Positions 6,421 to 36,783 of a DNA stretch of 36,783 nt are shown here, in pieces (positions within the stretch are counted from its first letter, which is position 1; the number at the start of each line of letters is the position of its first letter). The notes under the pieces were generated by a model. That model saw only the letters and a list, made by a program, of their open reading frames with translations. It was not told where the DNA came from and ran no database searches. The stretch covers positions 1-36,783 of the IMG/VR virus record IMGVR_UViG_3300027754_000229; one strand, written 5' to 3'. A program made the position numbers and the translations under genes. The stretch is from a virus.

Positions 6421-6813
6421 TTAAAGCCCTAGCACGCCTTTGACATCTGGTGGGGTCCAGCCTGCAGGCTTCAAGACTTTACCATCTTCTCTGCGTATGA
6501 CCTTGCCATCTACCAGCTTGGCCATGTTGCTGCGATGCACTTCGGCAAACACCTTGTCCAGCGGTATGCCGTATGCCACAGCAGTGCCACAGGCGATGTA
6601 GATGATATCAGCCAGCGCATCAGCTATCTCTACCAGGTCGTTTGCTGATTCGGCATCTGTGTATTCTTGCCATTCTTCTGCTAAGAGATTCTTGCGCAGA
6701 TCTCTTACATCTTGGCTGGGCAGTGCCGGGGCGTCTCCACGAGGCAAACCAAATGCCTCGTGAAAAGCGTCTACTGCATCGTAGGGATGCAGCAACAGAT
6801 AAGCGTCGTTCAT
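6421..6813 (-). CDS. MazG-like nucleotide pyrophosphohydrolase
   Basis: This 130-aa protein has the all-alpha NTP pyrophosphatase pattern. EEWQEY supplies the ExxE metal ligands and EIADALADIIYIACGTAVAYG the ExxD helix. It is followed by the typical phage tail HRSNMAKL, DGKVIRREDGKVLKPAGWTPPD. The family hydrolyses (d)NTPs to monophosphates; in phages it is thought to adjust nucleotide pools or alarmone levels. The start ATG overlaps the stop of the sliding clamp gene upstream, placing it in the replication operon. Confidence 0.85.
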   Translation of the reverse strand: MNDAYLLLHPYDAVDAFHEAFGLPRGDAPALPSQDVRDLRKNLLAEEWQEYTDAESANDLVEIADALADIIYIACGTAVAYGIPLDKVFAEVHRSNMAKLVDGKVIRREDGKVLKPAGWTPPDVKGVLGL

Positions 6814-7550: not shown

Positions 7551-7816
7551 TACCTAAATGCTCCTGACTTATTGCCAATTTGTGATTGCTGATCTTCTTC
7601 ATGCTTGAGCTTGACGTTGAGCTTCACACGCTCTTCAGTCCAGCCACATAGTTCTTGCATGATGAAACGCTTGCTCATCCAGCTGGGTGCTATCTGGATA
7701 GCTTCCATTAGTGTCTTGAGCTCGTCTGGTGTGTATCGTATCCCGTTACTAGTCACGGGTAGATGCTGCGTGTATGTTGTCGCAACATCTGCTGCGGTTG
7801 TCTGCTTATTTGCCAT
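7550..7816 (-). CDS. Hypothetical protein in sliding clamp operon (88 aa)
   Basis: Not recognised. It is helical and soluble, with TPDELKTLMEAIQIAPSWM and ELCGWTEERVKLNVKLKHEEDQQ. It lies first in the clamp operon, 17 nt downstream of the -10 box, and its stop overlaps the clamp ATG. The position recalls T4 genes 62/RegA near gp45, but length and sequence do not match either. The last ~15 residues are probably disordered. Confidence 0.6.
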   Translation of the reverse strand: MANKQTTAADVATTYTQHLPVTSNGIRYTPDELKTLMEAIQIAPSWMSKRFIMQELCGWTEERVKLNVKLKHEEDQQSQIGNKSGAFR

Positions 7817-7833
7817 GTGATATCCTCTGTAAC

Positions 7834-7862
7834 ATGATACTTGACAGTGTTATGATTGTCAA
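7834..7862 (-). promoter_or_regulatory. sigma70-like promoter for clamp operon (TTGACA / 17 nt / TATCAT)
   Basis: On the minus strand TTGACA (7857-7862) and TATCAT (7834-7839) are 17 nt apart, just upstream of the gene starting at 7816. There is no other room for a promoter between the polymerase stop and this gene. Confidence 0.7.
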
Positions 7863-7870
7863 TGCCTGCA

Positions 7871-10636
7871 CTAAAAGCTAAACAGATCTTCAAAGCTAGT
7901 GTTGGCCTTGTGCTCGTTGATGTTCCATTTCAACACACCCAACAAGTTGTCCAGCTTCTTGTCTATCAGCGCTGCTTCCATAGCATCGTGATCAAACGGC
8001 AACTCCTTGAACCACTGTGGCAGCTTGAGCTCGTCAGTTGGATATGCCACGCTGGTCATACCGCTTGGATTTGGCAACAGCTTGCACACGATCACCTTTT
8101 GACCGTCCTGGATTGGCATGCTATAATGATCACTGTAGATCTTCTTGAGCTTATTCCAGTTAAGGCTAGCTAGCACATGTCCGGGTATCATCACCTTCTT
8201 AGTAGCCACGTTGTTTTTTCCGAACGTGACCTTTTCTGAGATTTCTTGATTCTTGGCATGATTAGTGATGTTGTTAGCACGCTTGGGTGAACCTTTTTCC
8301 CAACCGGGCCAGCTGCGGAACTCTTTACGAAAGCGCATGATCATTTCCATAGCACCGGCTTTATCAGCGCCGGTCAGCACTCCAACCAACACTTCTTGTA
8401 GGAAGTCTTGCACAGTCTTTGGAGTATCGCTGCGCTTGAGATCTAATCCCATGGCTTTGATCTCACCCGGCTTGCCATTTTGATCCTTGCGCTTGCCTTC
8501 TTTGTCGTAGATCAACACTGCATAACGCTTCTTGGTAATAAACAAGCCTTTGATCGCACAGAGTTCGCGTGCTGCCTTGATGATCTTGCCGTTGATTTCT
8601 GGTGCACCAAACGCATCGTTCATAAATTGCGGAAAGCTGGCATTGGTCATGTCAGCAATCTTGTCATAGAGATCAATTACATTTTCTTTGGTCCATGCGT
8701 AGTCAGCAAACTCTGCTTGACCGCGCATAACTTCAAAAGCTGTGAAATACGCGCTGTCAGTGTCACCATATACAATGCTTTGACCAGTGTGATCATAGCT
8801 ACCAGCAATGATTTCGTTGATCTTGCCTGCCATGTGTCGCACAATACAGCGTCCACTTAGCGTAGTGCTTTGTGCCACACGCGGATCATACCAACGCGAT
8901 CCAGGATTACCAATAGCACCGTACAAACTGTTGAGCAAAATCTTCTTGATCAGCTGTCGTTGGTCATAGAACACTGCTTGCTTCTTGGCATGTGTCTTGG
9001 TGTCCGGATCATTGGCTTCGTCGGCCAGCTTGGACCATTTCTTGTATTCTGCTTGCAGTTCTTTACGCTCGGCAAACCAACGTGTAAGCACACCCGGAAT
9101 TAGACCAGGCTTGCTATAGTCAAAGATAGTACCATTTGCACTCAGTGTTAGTGTCCTGCCGCTGCTCCAAACTAAGTCGTACACTTCCTTAGCAGTCACT
9201 GTAGCGTTAGATCCGTCTTCAAAGTCCAGCGTTAGTATGTTGTTGTTCTGTTCCATCACGGCTTGATACTCAAGACTACCAAACACGCTGTTCCATGCGT
9301 CAGCAAATGTCTTTTTATTTGCCACCTGCTGCTTGATAAAAGCATCTGTGAGATCTGGGCGTATTTGTCCAATCACAGTCTCCGGGCTCATGTTCAATGC
9401 ACGAATCACACTGGGATACAGACTGTTAATATCAACTCCGCCGATCCAATCATGCATGCCCGGCTTGGGATCAGCAACATATGCACCAACCACAGAGCCG
9501 CCCATCTCTTCTTCTTCTGCCCAGCGTTCTTCCTTCTGTGCTTCAGTTTCACGTAACTTAGCAGGTACCATGAGATCCAAATCGTGTGCAGCGTTCACAA
9601 TAGCTTGGTCAATCAGCTGCACAGCTCCCATGGTAGTCTGCAGCAACACACAGTTGGTATGTGCCAAGTTGTTGGCTAGATCAATGAACTTTAGCTTAGC
9701 ATCGATCTTAACCAACAGCATAACGTCCTGGCGCGAGTATTCAATGAACTTCTTAAAGTCATTATTATACAGCTGATCCAGCGTGCCTTCATACTGCGTC
9801 TTGTGATCGCCAACTTCGTACTCGCCAATCGCATCTAGTCGATAGCTGTGCATCTCGTGATAGGTATGCTTGCGATACAGCTGTAAGTAGTCCAAGTGCA
9901 CTCGACCAACTAGGTCATAGGTAATAGTCTGTCGGCCATAGCTTTCATACTCGCGCTTTTTAGGATGCTTACCCCACAAGCATAACCGTCGCGTTTCGTC
10001 TTTGCCTAGCACTTGTATGATGCGATTGTACAGATATGGAATATCAAAGCCTTCGCTGTTCCAACCTGTAAGCACATCAACATCTTCAATCAGCGTGAGA
10101 AAGATGTGCAACAATTCTTTTTCGTCTGAGCATAGCATAGTATCTGGAAACTCTTCCACAATAGCCTGTGCTGCAGCGTCGCTCATGCCCTTGGGTTTAA
10201 GCACTAGCGTGAAGTTTCGTTCCATCCAATTTAGATAGATACTAATAGCTGTAACTGCTGCAAACGCATCATCTGGGCTACTGAAACCGCGCAGTGGGTC
10301 AAAGTCCACCTCAATGTCGAAGAACCCTACGTGTAGGTCAGTGGGCGCTGCATCTCGGTAGTTGTCATAAAGACAGCGAAAGATTGGATTGATATCGTTT
10401 TCATGCAGCTTGCCCTTGGGTAATACCCCCAGTTCGCGCTTGAATTCTTTGTCCTTAGCTGTTTGGAATTTTTCTAGCTTGGTACCAAATATACTGGTGT
10501 ACTTACCACGTTCACTGGGCCAATATACCACATAGCGTGTGGGATGTTCTACAAACTGTCTTTCGCCCTTAGCAGACCTTTCGACCACATAGATAGTATT
10601 GCGTTCTCTGTCTAACAGTGCGTCTACATAACTCAT
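7871..10636 (-). CDS. 43: Family B DNA polymerase (T4 gp43-like)
   Basis: 921 residues, close to T4 gp43 (898). The 3'-5' exonuclease motifs are intact: FFDIEVDFD (Exo I, Asp107/Glu109), GWNSEGFDIPYLYNRI (Exo II) and YSRQDVMLL (Exo III). Polymerase motif A is DINSLYPSVI (Asp402), motif B is KKILLNSLYGAIGN (about 564-577), and motif C is YGDTDSAYF (Asp625/Asp627). It is therefore an active-looking replicative polymerase with proofreading. AAGGAG lies 6 nt before the ATG. Stop codon is TAG. It acts with the adjacent sliding clamp. A sharp promoter is not obvious in the 110-bp leader. Confidence 0.97.
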   Translation of the reverse strand: MSYVDALLDRERNTIYVVERSAKGERQFVEHPTRYVVYWPSERGKYTSIFGTKLEKFQTAKDKEFKRELGVLPKGKLHENDINPIFRCLYDNYRDAAPTDLHVGFFDIEVDFDPLRGFSSPDDAFAAVTAISIYLNWMERNFTLVLKPKGMSDAAAQAIVEEFPDTMLCSDEKELLHIFLTLIEDVDVLTGWNSEGFDIPYLYNRIIQVLGKDETRRLCLWGKHPKKREYESYGRQTITYDLVGRVHLDYLQLYRKHTYHEMHSYRLDAIGEYEVGDHKTQYEGTLDQLYNNDFKKFIEYSRQDVMLLVKIDAKLKFIDLANNLAHTNCVLLQTTMGAVQLIDQAIVNAAHDLDLMVPAKLRETEAQKEERWAEEEEMGGSVVGAYVADPKPGMHDWIGGVDINSLYPSVIRALNMSPETVIGQIRPDLTDAFIKQQVANKKTFADAWNSVFGSLEYQAVMEQNNNILTLDFEDGSNATVTAKEVYDLVWSSGRTLTLSANGTIFDYSKPGLIPGVLTRWFAERKELQAEYKKWSKLADEANDPDTKTHAKKQAVFYDQRQLIKKILLNSLYGAIGNPGSRWYDPRVAQSTTLSGRCIVRHMAGKINEIIAGSYDHTGQSIVYGDTDSAYFTAFEVMRGQAEFADYAWTKENVIDLYDKIADMTNASFPQFMNDAFGAPEINGKIIKAARELCAIKGLFITKKRYAVLIYDKEGKRKDQNGKPGEIKAMGLDLKRSDTPKTVQDFLQEVLVGVLTGADKAGAMEMIMRFRKEFRSWPGWEKGSPKRANNITNHAKNQEISEKVTFGKNNVATKKVMIPGHVLASLNWNKLKKIYSDHYSMPIQDGQKVIVCKLLPNPSGMTSVAYPTDELKLPQWFKELPFDHDAMEAALIDKKLDNLLGVLKWNINEHKANTSFEDLFSF

Positions 10637-14023: not shown

Positions 14024-14713
14024 TTAGTGCCAAAGCCGATACATGCAGCCTCGCATGTAGTCTGAGGCTTTGATGCGCTTGTCGGTACGGTGATCGGTAG
14101 CACGGTCATCCTGGAAGCGTATGGTACGTATCTTGTCACCTCGCTGCCCGCTGCCAACTTGTATCTTCTTGGCTGTGCTGGATTCTGTCATGTGTTGGTC
14201 AGCAGCCAGCTTTTCTAACCTAGCCCTGATGTCATCCAGTGCTTGCTTGTAGCTGTTGTCTCTGTTGCGAGTCTGTGCTGTGACCAGTATGCCACTTGGT
14301 AAGTGGGTCAATCTGCAGCTGTTTTGGTGCTTGTTGCGATGTTGACCACCTGCGCCTGTTCCGCTAAACCATTCTATGCGCAGATCTTTGTCTTTGATGT
14401 CAATGATCTGTGTGTTGGATGGGTCTAGCACTGCTACAGTGACCGTGCTGGTGTGGACTCTACCGTTGCGCTCAGTTGGTGGGATGCGTTGCAGCCTATG
14501 GCCGCCTGCTTCCTGTTCTAGCTTGGATAAGTCCGGCCCGTCTATCTCGAGCGTGATGCTCTGATGACCCTGGCTACCTGGCCTGGTATCGACCAGGTGG
14601 TGCGTTCAGCCAAACCGAGTGCTGAGCTTGATGTAGGCTTCTGCCAAATCGCGGACAAACAGCTTGCTGTCATCGCCGCCTTCGGCAGCATTGATTTCTA
14701 TGATCTTCTTCAT
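14024..14713 (-). CDS. RF1-type peptide chain release factor lacking domain 1, interrupted by an in-frame UGA
   Basis: Read through one UGA (14606-14608), the frame gives 229 codons matching RF1 domains 2-4. IIEINAAEGGDDSKLFVRDL corresponds to the 'IEIRAGxGGDEAxLFAxDL' segment. HRLQRIPPTERNGRVHTST carries a PxT-type anticodon motif (PPT). GTGAGGQHRNK is the GGQ loop that triggers peptidyl-tRNA hydrolysis. QVGSGQRGDKIRTIRF and ATDHRTDKRI match the C-terminal region. The N-terminal domain 1 is absent, as in PrfH-type factors. The UGA falls after Gly35, where many RF1 proteins have Trp; both other frames soon hit stops. GAGGAGG sits 5 nt before the ATG. Possible explanations are regulated UGA readthrough, recent inactivation, or a sequencing error. 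Confidence 0.8.
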
Positions 14714-19993: not shown

Positions 19994-20051
19994 AATCCTC
20001 TAAGCGCAAGGGTCACACCCCCCATGCATGAGATATTTTGGAGGGGTAAAC

Positions 20052-21179
20052 ATGAACAAGCTAGAGCAATACATACGCACGAACACCTTTGATCGCCCAA
20101 CGCTGGTGCTGGACATAGATCAAGTTGAAACCAATTATCATGCGCTCAAGAGCGGCATGCCTGATGCACTCATACACTATGCAGTCAAGTCAAATCCGCA
20201 TCCAGACATACTGTCAAGGTTGGTAACACTTGGCTGCAGATTTGATGCTGCTAGCAGGCAAGAGATCCAGATGTGCTTGGATGCCGGTGCTAAACCACAC
20301 GAAATAAGCTACGGCAACACCATCAAGCGGGCTAGCGACATAGATTGGGCAGCTGCTGCAGGCATTACATTATTCAGTGCTGACGCTGAAGAAGAGCTTG
20401 AAAAGCTAGCAGTGCATGCACCAGGTGCTAGCGTGTTCATACGCATAATGGTCAGCAGTGCAGAAGCAGAATGGCCGTTGTCGCGCAAGTTTGGTTGCAG
20501 CACTAGCTATGCGCTGCCCTTGCTTGATCGTGCTAAAGCACTTGGCTTGGCACCAGTCGGACTTAGCTTCCACGTTGGTAGCCAGACCAAGCATCCCTAC
20601 ATGTGGTATGATTGCCTAGATATCGTAGCAGCGATCTGGGAAAATGCTCGCGCAGAAGGTCACAAGCTATGGCTGCTGAACATAGGCGGCGGATTTCCAG
20701 CTTACTATGGCGTAGACATAACCGAACCTACGCAGTATGGTACAGAACTGATACAGGCCATACGTGATAGATTCGAGGGTGTTGACTATATCATGGCCGA
20801 ACCAGGTCGCGGCATGGTTGGATCTGCAGGTGCCATGGCTACAGAATGCTTGCTGGTATCTCGCAAGATACCGGGAGATCCTGTGCGCTGGGTGTTTCTC
20901 GATGCGGGACGATTTAGCGGCCTAGCCGAAGTAGAAGGCGAAGCTATCAAGTATCAGTTTGTAGTGTTTGGTAAAGAAACACATGCAACCAGTGCTTGCA
21001 TAGTAGCCGGTCCAACTTGCGACTCTGCTGATATACTCTACGAGAAGAACAAGGTTGAGTTACCAGTGGATCTTGCCAGCGGCGACAGATTTATGATCAA
21101 GACCTGCGGTGCTTATACTAGCACCTATAGCACTGTAGCATTCAATGGATTTCCGCCACTAGCTGTAGTATCTATATAG
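20052..21179 (+). CDS. Ornithine decarboxylase-like PLP enzyme (fold type III)
   Basis: 375 aa, the size of short alphaproteobacterial ornithine decarboxylases. YAVKSNPHP carries the PLP lysine (Lys46). SFHVGSQ, NIGGGFP and EPGRGM form the phosphate-binding and barrel motifs. GPTCDSAD carries the catalytic Cys323 and substrate-binding Asp. The C-terminal GAYTSTYSTVAFNGFPP matches the family. The expected reaction is ornithine to putrescine and CO2; lysine or diaminopimelate as substrate cannot be excluded. GGAGGGG lies 6 nt before the ATG, ruling out the ATG at 20028. It is the only plus-strand gene in this part, flanked by divergent and convergent genes. Polyamines would help neutralise packaged DNA. 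Confidence 0.85.
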   Translation: MNKLEQYIRTNTFDRPTLVLDIDQVETNYHALKSGMPDALIHYAVKSNPHPDILSRLVTLGCRFDAASRQEIQMCLDAGAKPHEISYGNTIKRASDIDWAAAAGITLFSADAEEELEKLAVHAPGASVFIRIMVSSAEAEWPLSRKFGCSTSYALPLLDRAKALGLAPVGLSFHVGSQTKHPYMWYDCLDIVAAIWENARAEGHKLWLLNIGGGFPAYYGVDITEPTQYGTELIQAIRDRFEGVDYIMAEPGRGMVGSAGAMATECLLVSRKIPGDPVRWVFLDAGRFSGLAEVEGEAIKYQFVVFGKETHATSACIVAGPTCDSADILYEKNKVELPVDLASGDRFMIKTCGAYTSTYSTVAFNGFPPLAVVSI

Positions 21180-35647: not shown

Positions 35648-36355
35648 TTAACTTTTTTCGCCAATGAGATCAACAAGCTTTTCCCAGGTATCTTGCCAAT
35701 CACGAACATGGTATGCAACACCTAGATCTTGTTCGCGTATGGCTGTGGCCAGCCCATAATCGTTGCCAGCCGGATCCATGCGATCGCCAAAGAAGTGCAA
35801 TGGTGCTTGCGTAGCCAGCTGCTGTGCCAACTGCTGCTTGCTGCGTCCTCTGGGGTAGATGTCTATGCCAGTTTCGCCAGCTACAGTTGCTTCGATATCG
35901 GGCCAAGCTTGCATCAGCTGGGTGGCCACGTGCTCTCGCTCTCGGTTTTCCAGGTCCCATTCGTAGTAGTGCTTGCGCTGGTCAAGGTCAGCATTGCGTC
36001 CTACTATGCTTAGGTTTACCAATCCAACCCTGTGTTCAATGTGCCTGCCCGTGCGCACAGGATATGTGCTGCGTCTGACTCTGGCTTGCAGCCATGCATA
36101 GAACTCGTCATCTAGCGGCCAATCGTTCCTGGCAATCTCAACACCGCGATCAAACACATGATTGCCTGCACAGTTGTACACAGTCATCTGTTCGTAGAGA
36201 TCGTTGCCGATCTGCTCTCGAGTCTTGTCTGGGTCGCTGCCTGTAACCAACACGCTCCTACTGGCTGCGTGTTCAATGAACCAAGCTTTGAATGCCTGAT
36301 CCATCTTGCCCCTGCTGGGTGTTAGCGTTCCGTCTACGTCAAATATCAACAGCAT
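35648..36355 (-). CDS. HAD-IIB phosphatase, phosphomannomutase-like
   Basis: LLIFDVDGTLTPSRG is HAD motif I (Asp6, Asp8). VLVTGSD is motif II. LVNLSIVGRNAD matches the cap 'VNxSPxGRN' of eukaryotic-type phosphomannomutases, and FFGDRMDPAGNDY is the motif IV 'FGDKTxPGGNDYE'. 235 aa, slightly shorter than PMM (~250). It may interconvert mannose/glucose phosphates or simply dephosphorylate a sugar phosphate. GAGGTAAC precedes the ATG, and the gene follows metK after 11 nt. Sugar-nucleotide supply for the glycosyltransferases is one possible role. Confidence 0.75.
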   Translation of the reverse strand: MLLIFDVDGTLTPSRGKMDQAFKAWFIEHAASRSVLVTGSDPDKTREQIGNDLYEQMTVYNCAGNHVFDRGVEIARNDWPLDDEFYAWLQARVRRSTYPVRTGRHIEHRVGLVNLSIVGRNADLDQRKHYYEWDLENREREHVATQLMQAWPDIEATVAGETGIDIYPRGRSKQQLAQQLATQAPLHFFGDRMDPAGNDYGLATAIREQDLGVAYHVRDWQDTWEKLVDLIGEKS

Positions 36356-36366
36356 CTGCAGTTACC

Positions 36367-36783
36367 TCAGAATAGATCAATGGCTTCCCAGGGCAGATCA
36401 GCTTTGCCAAAATGCCCATAGTTGGTGGTGCTGCTGTAGATTGGACGAAACAGGTCAAACCGTTTGATGATACCACGCGGTGTTAGGTCCACGTTGTCGG
36501 TGATCCACTTGGTTAGCCTTCGGCTGTCGCCATTGCTTTCAATGTAAAAGCTCATGGGAGTTTCCACACCAATGGCATAGCTGATCTGCACAGTTGCCCA
36601 ATCAGCTTTGCCACTTGCTACGATGTTCTTGGCGAGATATCGCATCAGGTAAGCAGCACTGCGATCTACCTTGGTCGGATCCTTGCCACTGAACGCACCA
36701 CCACCGTGCGGTGCATATCCACCATAGCTGTCCACGATGATCTTGCGACCTGTTAGGCCCGTGTCGCCATCTGGCCCACCAAT
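36367..36783 (-). CDS. metK: S-adenosylmethionine synthetase, C-terminal part (5' end outside window)
   Basis: The frame is open to the right edge; 138 C-terminal residues are visible. [40 protein letters not shown] and [13 protein letters not shown] are the hallmark MetK segments (P-loop-like [10 protein letters not shown] with the ATP/Pi-binding Lys). SYAIGVETP and the final [12 protein letters not shown] also match. The usual 'GGPHGDAG' His is Asp here. It makes SAM from methionine and ATP. It would feed methyltransferases or polyamine synthesis. Confidence 0.93.

Follow-up and report, generated by a model that had tools for sequence, protein, structure and literature searches.

Why should a phage gene for a peptide chain release factor carry a stop codon inside its own reading frame? 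The question is raised by a minus-strand gene in IMG/VR virus record IMGVR_UViG_3300027754_000229. The whole 36,783-nucleotide stretch that was analyzed is referred to below as the window.

An RF1-type gene interrupted by an in-frame UGA codon

The gene begins with an ATG at 14713 and runs through 35 codons to a TGA at 14608-14606, after which 193 codons follow before a TAA at 14026-14024. The features of the locus are listed here.

14024..14713, minus strand: whole gene, encoding an RF1-type release factor that lacks domain 1; 229 codons including the UGA, then TAA
14719..14726, minus strand: Shine-Dalgarno-like AGAGGAGG, 5 nt 5' of the ATG
14606..14713, minus strand: upstream open frame, start of RF1 domain 2; 35 codons, closed by the internal UGA
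14606..14608, minus strand: internal in-frame UGA, codon 36, at the RF1 Trp position
14591..14605, minus strand: codons 37-41, immediately 3' of the UGA; ACG CAC CAC CTG GTC in the window copy
14027..14605, minus strand: downstream frame, remainder of RF1 domains 2-4; 193 codons
14474..14482, minus strand: P-P-T stop-codon recognition tripeptide (RF1-type PxT), assigned from known RF1/RF2 biochemistry
14342..14350, minus strand: GGQ peptidyl-tRNA hydrolysis motif

The 35-codon part alone matches the Pfam family PCRF, and the part after the UGA matches PCRF and RF-1. An RF1 of solved structure could be aligned with frame 0 of the window without a gap across the site, with a Trp residue facing the UGA. 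These matches bear out the proposal of an earlier, sequence-only reading of the window that the UGA interrupts a gene colinear with RF1, with no shift of frame. They also agree with its assignment of the stop to a position usually occupied by Trp, a residue found there in two exceptional members of the same clade as well (below). TAG closes the two alternative frames after about 12 and 22 codons, confirming that the +1 and -1 frames are blocked early. The site itself reads GGC TGA A with continuation in frame 0, and the RF2-type arrangement CUU UGA C with a +1 continuation is absent from it. No RF2-style frameshift fits the window, as the same reading had held.

Elsewhere in the window there are genes for an ornithine/arginine/DAP-type decarboxylase (20028-21179) and a phosphomannomutase-like protein (35648-36355) and, at the contig edge, for the C-terminal domain of an S-adenosylmethionine synthetase (36367-36735).

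The predicted product is an RF1 fold without domain 1

The best-scoring models for the window protein were those of RF1 (prfA). The match starts at RF1 residue ~107, domain 1 being missing, and its 208 bits do not reach the whole-length prfA cut-off of 400. The GGQ motif is present, the recognition tripeptide is PPT and not SPF, and QRxPPTE occurs in nearly all aligned family members. A PxT tripeptide at this position confers specificity for UAA and UAG in RF1/RF2 biochemistry. The motif implies that the window factor would be UAA/UAG-specific, although peptide release is here inferred from PPT in the absence of release data.

An AlphaFold2 model, in which the UGA was read as Trp, had a mean pLDDT of 89.9 and matched ribosome-bound RF1 with a Z-score of 22.6 over 228 residues, corresponding to RF1 positions 105-337. 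On the basis of this model the full-length protein is confidently predicted to have the RF1 fold of domains 2-4. An identity as PrfH was rejected, the score being 60 bits against a cut-off of 166.65; the structural match to PrfH was also weaker than that to RF1 (Z-score 14.4 versus 22.6). RtcB, expected directly upstream in the case of PrfH, was not found among 20 flanking proteins of the bacterial members scanned, a search that covered only some of the neighbors, and the neighboring genes of these bacterial members had no common theme.

The UGA codon is invariant among close relatives

The sequence-only reading had pointed to homologues in related phages as a check, and had named random stops elsewhere in the gene as the sign of decay. 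A first IMG/VR scan yielded 80 relatives, 78 of them covering the UGA site. The site codon is TGA in all 78 and is never TAA, TAG, or a sense codon. A second scan, which recovered largely the same phages, gave TGA in 76 of 76, and one further member was read by hand. The relatives thus hold UGA at the identical codon, and no close relative has random stops elsewhere instead. This conservation extends over considerable divergence, since 47 representatives chosen at <85% identity share 48-85% amino acid identity (median pairwise 66%, minimum 48%). An ATG start lies close to 35 codons upstream of the UGA in all 79 genes. The value of pN/pS is 0.14 upstream of the UGA and 0.24 downstream with synonymous sites near saturation, indicating that both halves are translated as protein.

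An internal stop within a metagenomic contig could in principle mark a pseudogene or an error of sequencing or assembly. However, the identical codon recurs in many independent metagenomes and also at the same place in isolate genomes of Thalassospira, Jiella, and Gemmobacter, and purifying selection acts on both sides of it. Gemmobacter caeni DSM 21823 and Thalassospira xianhensis are among the carriers of the in-frame UGA. Decay or error is refuted by this conservation and can effectively be set aside. The in-frame UGA of the window is real and not a product of decay.

The gene might instead specify two products, a 35-residue peptide and a separately initiated C-terminal protein. A few relatives do have a start codon no more than 16 codons from the UGA. 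Across the relatives, however, the distance from the UGA to the next in-frame start is scattered, and this start is mostly past the PPTE motif, which is at codon 37 after the UGA; this argues against re-initiation. A start overlaps the stop at the UGA in only 2 of 79 relatives, and the window has no in-frame start beyond the UGA until a GTG at 14431, past the recognition motif. We consider separate initiation very unlikely.

UGA terminates other genes in these phages

The residue aligned with the UGA is Trp, as would be expected if UGA were simply a Trp codon for these phages or their hosts. TGA is nevertheless the terminal stop of 736 of the 1524 long open reading frames in six jumbo phage genomes and of 19 of the 33 in the window. 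Terminal TGA is common in the window and in three genomes, and with the standard code their coding density comes to 0.77-0.84. Stretches of 49 kb from the mega-phage genomes likewise fit the standard code. Conserved in-frame TGA codons were compared across the six jumbo genomes (2.16 Mb, read in pieces, with antisense shadow frames filtered out), and the release factor site was the only aligned in-frame TGA present in more than three of the six. A UGA-reassigned phage (code 4) was rejected because UGA is neither avoided as a terminal stop nor common inside genes. Together with mega-phage UGA codons that are not aligned with the Trp of RF1 (below), these data make reassignment highly improbable.

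The phages are rich in tRNA genes. In 19 long contigs that include the gene (100-524 kb), tRNA genes number 25-61 per contig, and each contig has exactly one RF-1 domain gene. tRNAs with stop anticodons occur in all six jumbo genomes, CUA in five and UCA, in two copies, in the sixth.

G001 (L149:3408-3482): CUA tRNA
G007 (L165:1027-1103): CUA tRNA
G008 (L118:4199-4272 and 6682-6759): CUA tRNAs
G012 (L572:18611-18769): CUA tRNA
G013 (L558:13454-13621): CUA tRNA
G004 (L587:19793-20002): UCA tRNAs, two copies adjoining tmRNA

A phage-encoded opal suppressor tRNA that reads the UGA would tie production of the factor to late expression of phage tRNAs. The two UCA tRNAs of G004 are in favor of such a role, as is a UCA-anticodon tRNA in another phage (L514:4139-4210), which follows the UGA-gated release factor gene at a distance of ~1.7 kb. 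However, ARAGORN found no UCA tRNA in G001, G007, G008, G012, or G013, all of which have the same UGA and carry CUA (amber) tRNAs instead, and none was found in the 36.8 kb window fragment, which is itself incomplete. The tRNA lists rest on ARAGORN, and odd tRNAs may be missed. With CUA tRNAs in five of the six jumbo genomes and UCA in only one, a cognate opal suppressor is not general, and we judge this explanation unlikely; a near-cognate tRNA-Trp is then the default guess for the decoding tRNA.

Specialized UGA-reading forms of tRNA-Trp were considered and rejected. Of 18 phage tRNA-Trp genes, 10 have a Hirsh-like A24 and 8 lack it, so that this feature offers no general explanation. A 4-bp anticodon stem, seen in 5 of 25 cases, is not unusual for these phages and explains nothing generally.

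Several other observations were made on the RNA genes of these phages. The stop-anticodon tRNAs coexist with the RF1-type factor, so that suppressors of termination and factors for termination are encoded in one phage. G008 contains a permuted tmRNA and a match at gathering score to the Rhizobiales sRNA Atu_At1 (L116:10274-10555; L117:15953-16062), which may point to an alphaproteobacterial host. Two matches to the tRNA family (L117:9626-9748 and 7788-7910) are 123 bases long, far above normal tRNA length, and perhaps carry small inserts or introns.

The stop lies in a putative weak-termination context

The base following the in-frame stop (+4) is A, C, or G in all 154 in-frame stops of the family and T in none, whereas T is the commonest base after the terminal TGA codons of the six jumbo phages (255 of 736, 35%). 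This bias was observed directly and upholds the earlier description of the UGA context as leaky. The in-frame stop differs in its surroundings from terminal ones, and its context is one predicted to give weak termination.

Constraint continues 3' of the stop. The family consensus at codons 37-41 is ACT ACC CGC CTG ATA, which the window copy matches only partly. These codons are five of the eight most synonymously constrained columns among 178 testable, with z-scores of 12-23 against an all-column mean of 2.4. Codon 39 begins with C in 47 of 47 sequences, even though the residue encoded is Arg, His, Gln, or Leu. RNAalifold applied to the 47 sequences predicted no conserved pair or stem-loop after the UGA, suggesting that any 3' stimulator is a linear sequence element and not a hairpin.

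In-frame stops and frameshift sites interchange in a wider family

Further members were collected from one scan of bacterial genomes and three more IMG/VR scans. There were 247 unique classified loci, comprising 3 ordinary RF1/RF2 controls and 244 short RF1-like genes from phages and bacteria. When the 244 genes were sorted by gate, 145 had an in-frame stop (nearly all UGA), 88 a +1 frameshift site, 8 neither, and 3 were unclear. The searches were seeded with gated queries, so the ungated share may be underestimated, and the unique loci should not be counted as independent events.

CTT precedes the stop at every one of the 88 shift sites, 64 of which also have a Shine-Dalgarno-like element. 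The stop itself varies between CUU-UGA, CUU-UAG, and CUU-UAA, 24 of the frameshift members having UAG or UAA. In Myxococcota (Nannocystis, Minicystis, Kofleriaceae) and in many phages, a Shine-Dalgarno-like GGAG is followed by CTT TGA C, CTT TAG C, or CTT TAA C and a +1 continuation; Nannocystis exedens DSM 71 has the CUU UGA C form. This is the design of RF2 housed in an RF1-type gene. CTT TAG C sites in RF1-type genes were noted in L264, L266, L268, L252, and L531. Where the gate is UAG or UAA, an RF1-type factor could in principle regulate its own synthesis directly.

In a third group, an in-frame UGA or a CTT-stop shift lies about ten codons further on. Family members were also found among the huge-phage records of INPHARED. 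Mega-phages (635-735 kb) have one or two in-frame UGA codons at positions unlike that of the window, all before the recognition motif and none aligned with the Trp of RF1.

L289, L292, L293, and L294 (LR745206, LR756502, LR756504, and LR756501, respectively): mega-phage members with one or two in-frame UGA codons

At the +45 site, three mega-phage-type relatives have UAG in place of UGA. This replacement bears on selenocysteine, for which UGA is the codon: three members with UAG in its place, the lack of a conserved structure downstream of the UGA, and Trp both in RF1 and in the in-clade exceptions leave selenocysteine insertion scarcely credible.

Nine whole bacterial genomes that were searched have four or five RF-1 domain genes each. 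Two of these in each genome are of 351-417 codons, fitting ordinary full-length RF1 and RF2, which shows the short factor to be an extra one. Some wastewater records in INPHARED labeled as Listeria or Staphylococcus phages (L297, L298, and others) are short, unannotated, and of ordinary RF1 (prfA) sequence, and look like bacterial contamination.

In a quickly built tree of 123 rows, many of whose branches are weak, the window falls in a clade of 28 rows with a support of 100. Twenty-six of these rows have the in-frame UGA and two have a frameshift. When the three gate states are mapped on the tree, at least 14 changes are required, at least three of them forced by well-supported branches; swapping between recoding modes is thus observed within the family. 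The two frameshift members of the clade, L252 (a Hahella metagenome-assembled genome) and L531, have CTT TAG C sites and a TGG Trp codon where the others have UGA. No other single observation argues as strongly as these two TGG codons that the UGA of the window stands for Trp, and that what has been kept is the gate and not the codon.

Relation to known recoded release factor genes

The textbook self-limiting loop among release factors is the RF2 frameshift. prfB, which encodes RF2, resembles the window gene in having an early in-frame UGA and in requiring recoding for the full product. Many relatives of the window gene share the prfB cassette exactly, with the Shine-Dalgarno-like GGAG and CTT TGA C. 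Unlike prfB, the window gene and the rest of its clade stay in one frame past the stop. UGA is not the cognate stop of the encoded factor, which is RF1-type, and in part of the frameshift relatives UAG or UAA takes the place of UGA. In a published survey the prfB motif was never seen with UAG, and prfA gave no convincing case of recoding (PMC12421855).

Another counterpart is viral. The class-I release factor gene of Mimivirus and Megavirus (R726/mg280) combines readthrough of UGA-C, probably as Trp, with a CUU-stop +1 frameshift (PMC3521657). Like the window gene it is a virus-encoded release factor gene with a readthrough UGA in a weak context and a likely Trp. It differs in that the factor is of the eukaryotic/archaeal type, from amoeba viruses, and so belongs to another protein family and host domain. 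Moreover, both events occur in one gene in R726/mg280, whereas members of the window's family have one or the other, or two UGA codons. When the open-access literature, preprints excluded, was searched for internal stops in phage release factor genes, only this giant-virus case was found.

PrfH (RFH) also lacks domain 1 and retains the recognition domain and GGQ (PMC1586002), but its recognition loop is different from that of the window factor; no recoding of PrfH is mentioned in the passages retrieved. Huge phages with tRNAs, tmRNA, and RF1/RF2 release factors were described by Al-Shayeb et al. in 2020 (PMC7162821). Their release factor genes represent the same biology as the window, and recoding of these genes is not mentioned in the passages retrieved. 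A review published in 2016 stated that an early in-frame stop with in-frame continuation was unknown in bacterial RF2 and RF1 genes. This design, simpler than the frameshift and relying on readthrough by a near-cognate tRNA, had been proposed before release factor genes were sequenced; according to the same review, only an amoeba giant virus had anything similar (PMC5009743).

Proposed mechanism and function

We think it likely that the window gene encodes an accessory RF1-type factor gated by programmed stop codon recoding, namely readthrough of the internal UGA, although no protein, ribosome profiling, or reporter data are available. Ribosomes would initiate at the ATG and synthesize 35 residues. 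UGA is the stop codon read by RF2, and the majority of ribosomes would terminate there via the RF2 of the host. A fraction would insert an amino acid, most probably Trp carried by a near-cognate tRNA-Trp, and go on to complete the 229-residue factor. Both the readthrough itself and the insertion of Trp are inferences and have not been demonstrated. Relatives would build an equivalent gate from an in-frame UGA elsewhere or from an RF2-style +1 frameshift at a CUU-stop. This rebuilding indicates that selection keeps a recoded stop codon and not a Trp codon.

Such a gate would probably serve to confine synthesis of the factor mainly to conditions of slow stop decoding or low termination capacity. 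With UGA as the stop and an RF1-type factor as the product, the gate of the window would report RF2 activity and not that of the factor itself. Direct autoregulation is not expected from this combination, and a role in sensing weak termination is a guess, inferred and not shown. A backup factor produced when stop decoding stalls would fit both the UGA-gated and the UAG/UAA-gated members.

The alternative is that the UGA merely sets a low constant dose through fixed leakiness, without any sensing. The pairing of an RF1-type PPT motif with a UGA read by RF2, which precludes a direct feedback loop, is consistent with this, and surplus RF1 mildly lowers the fitness of B. subtilis (PMC12421855). 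However, a weak ribosome-binding site would suffice to hold the dose low, and that of the window is good. In addition, the repeated use of stops, including UAG or UAA in the 24 frameshift members noted above, points to stop decoding as the input. A fixed dose remains possible, but we lean against it. For the family as a whole, which comprises domain-1-less RF1 proteins of jumbo and mega-phages and of some Proteobacteria and Myxococcota, we tentatively suggest, without being able to commit to it, that these are emergency factors sensing termination failure, with a stop gate that has been rebuilt many times, at different positions and by two mechanisms. In this view the stop would prevent synthesis as long as termination works well and would admit it, through readthrough or frameshifting, once stop decoding stalls.

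Genes of this type are probably truncated or missed by gene callers. A design with an in-frame stop, held to be unknown in bacterial release factor genes, is here conserved across phages and in isolates. The occurrence of frameshift versions within the same family makes the interchange of readthrough and frameshift testable, and the family provides a natural collection of bacterial contexts for UGA readthrough. The findings suggest that large phages actively manage translation termination.
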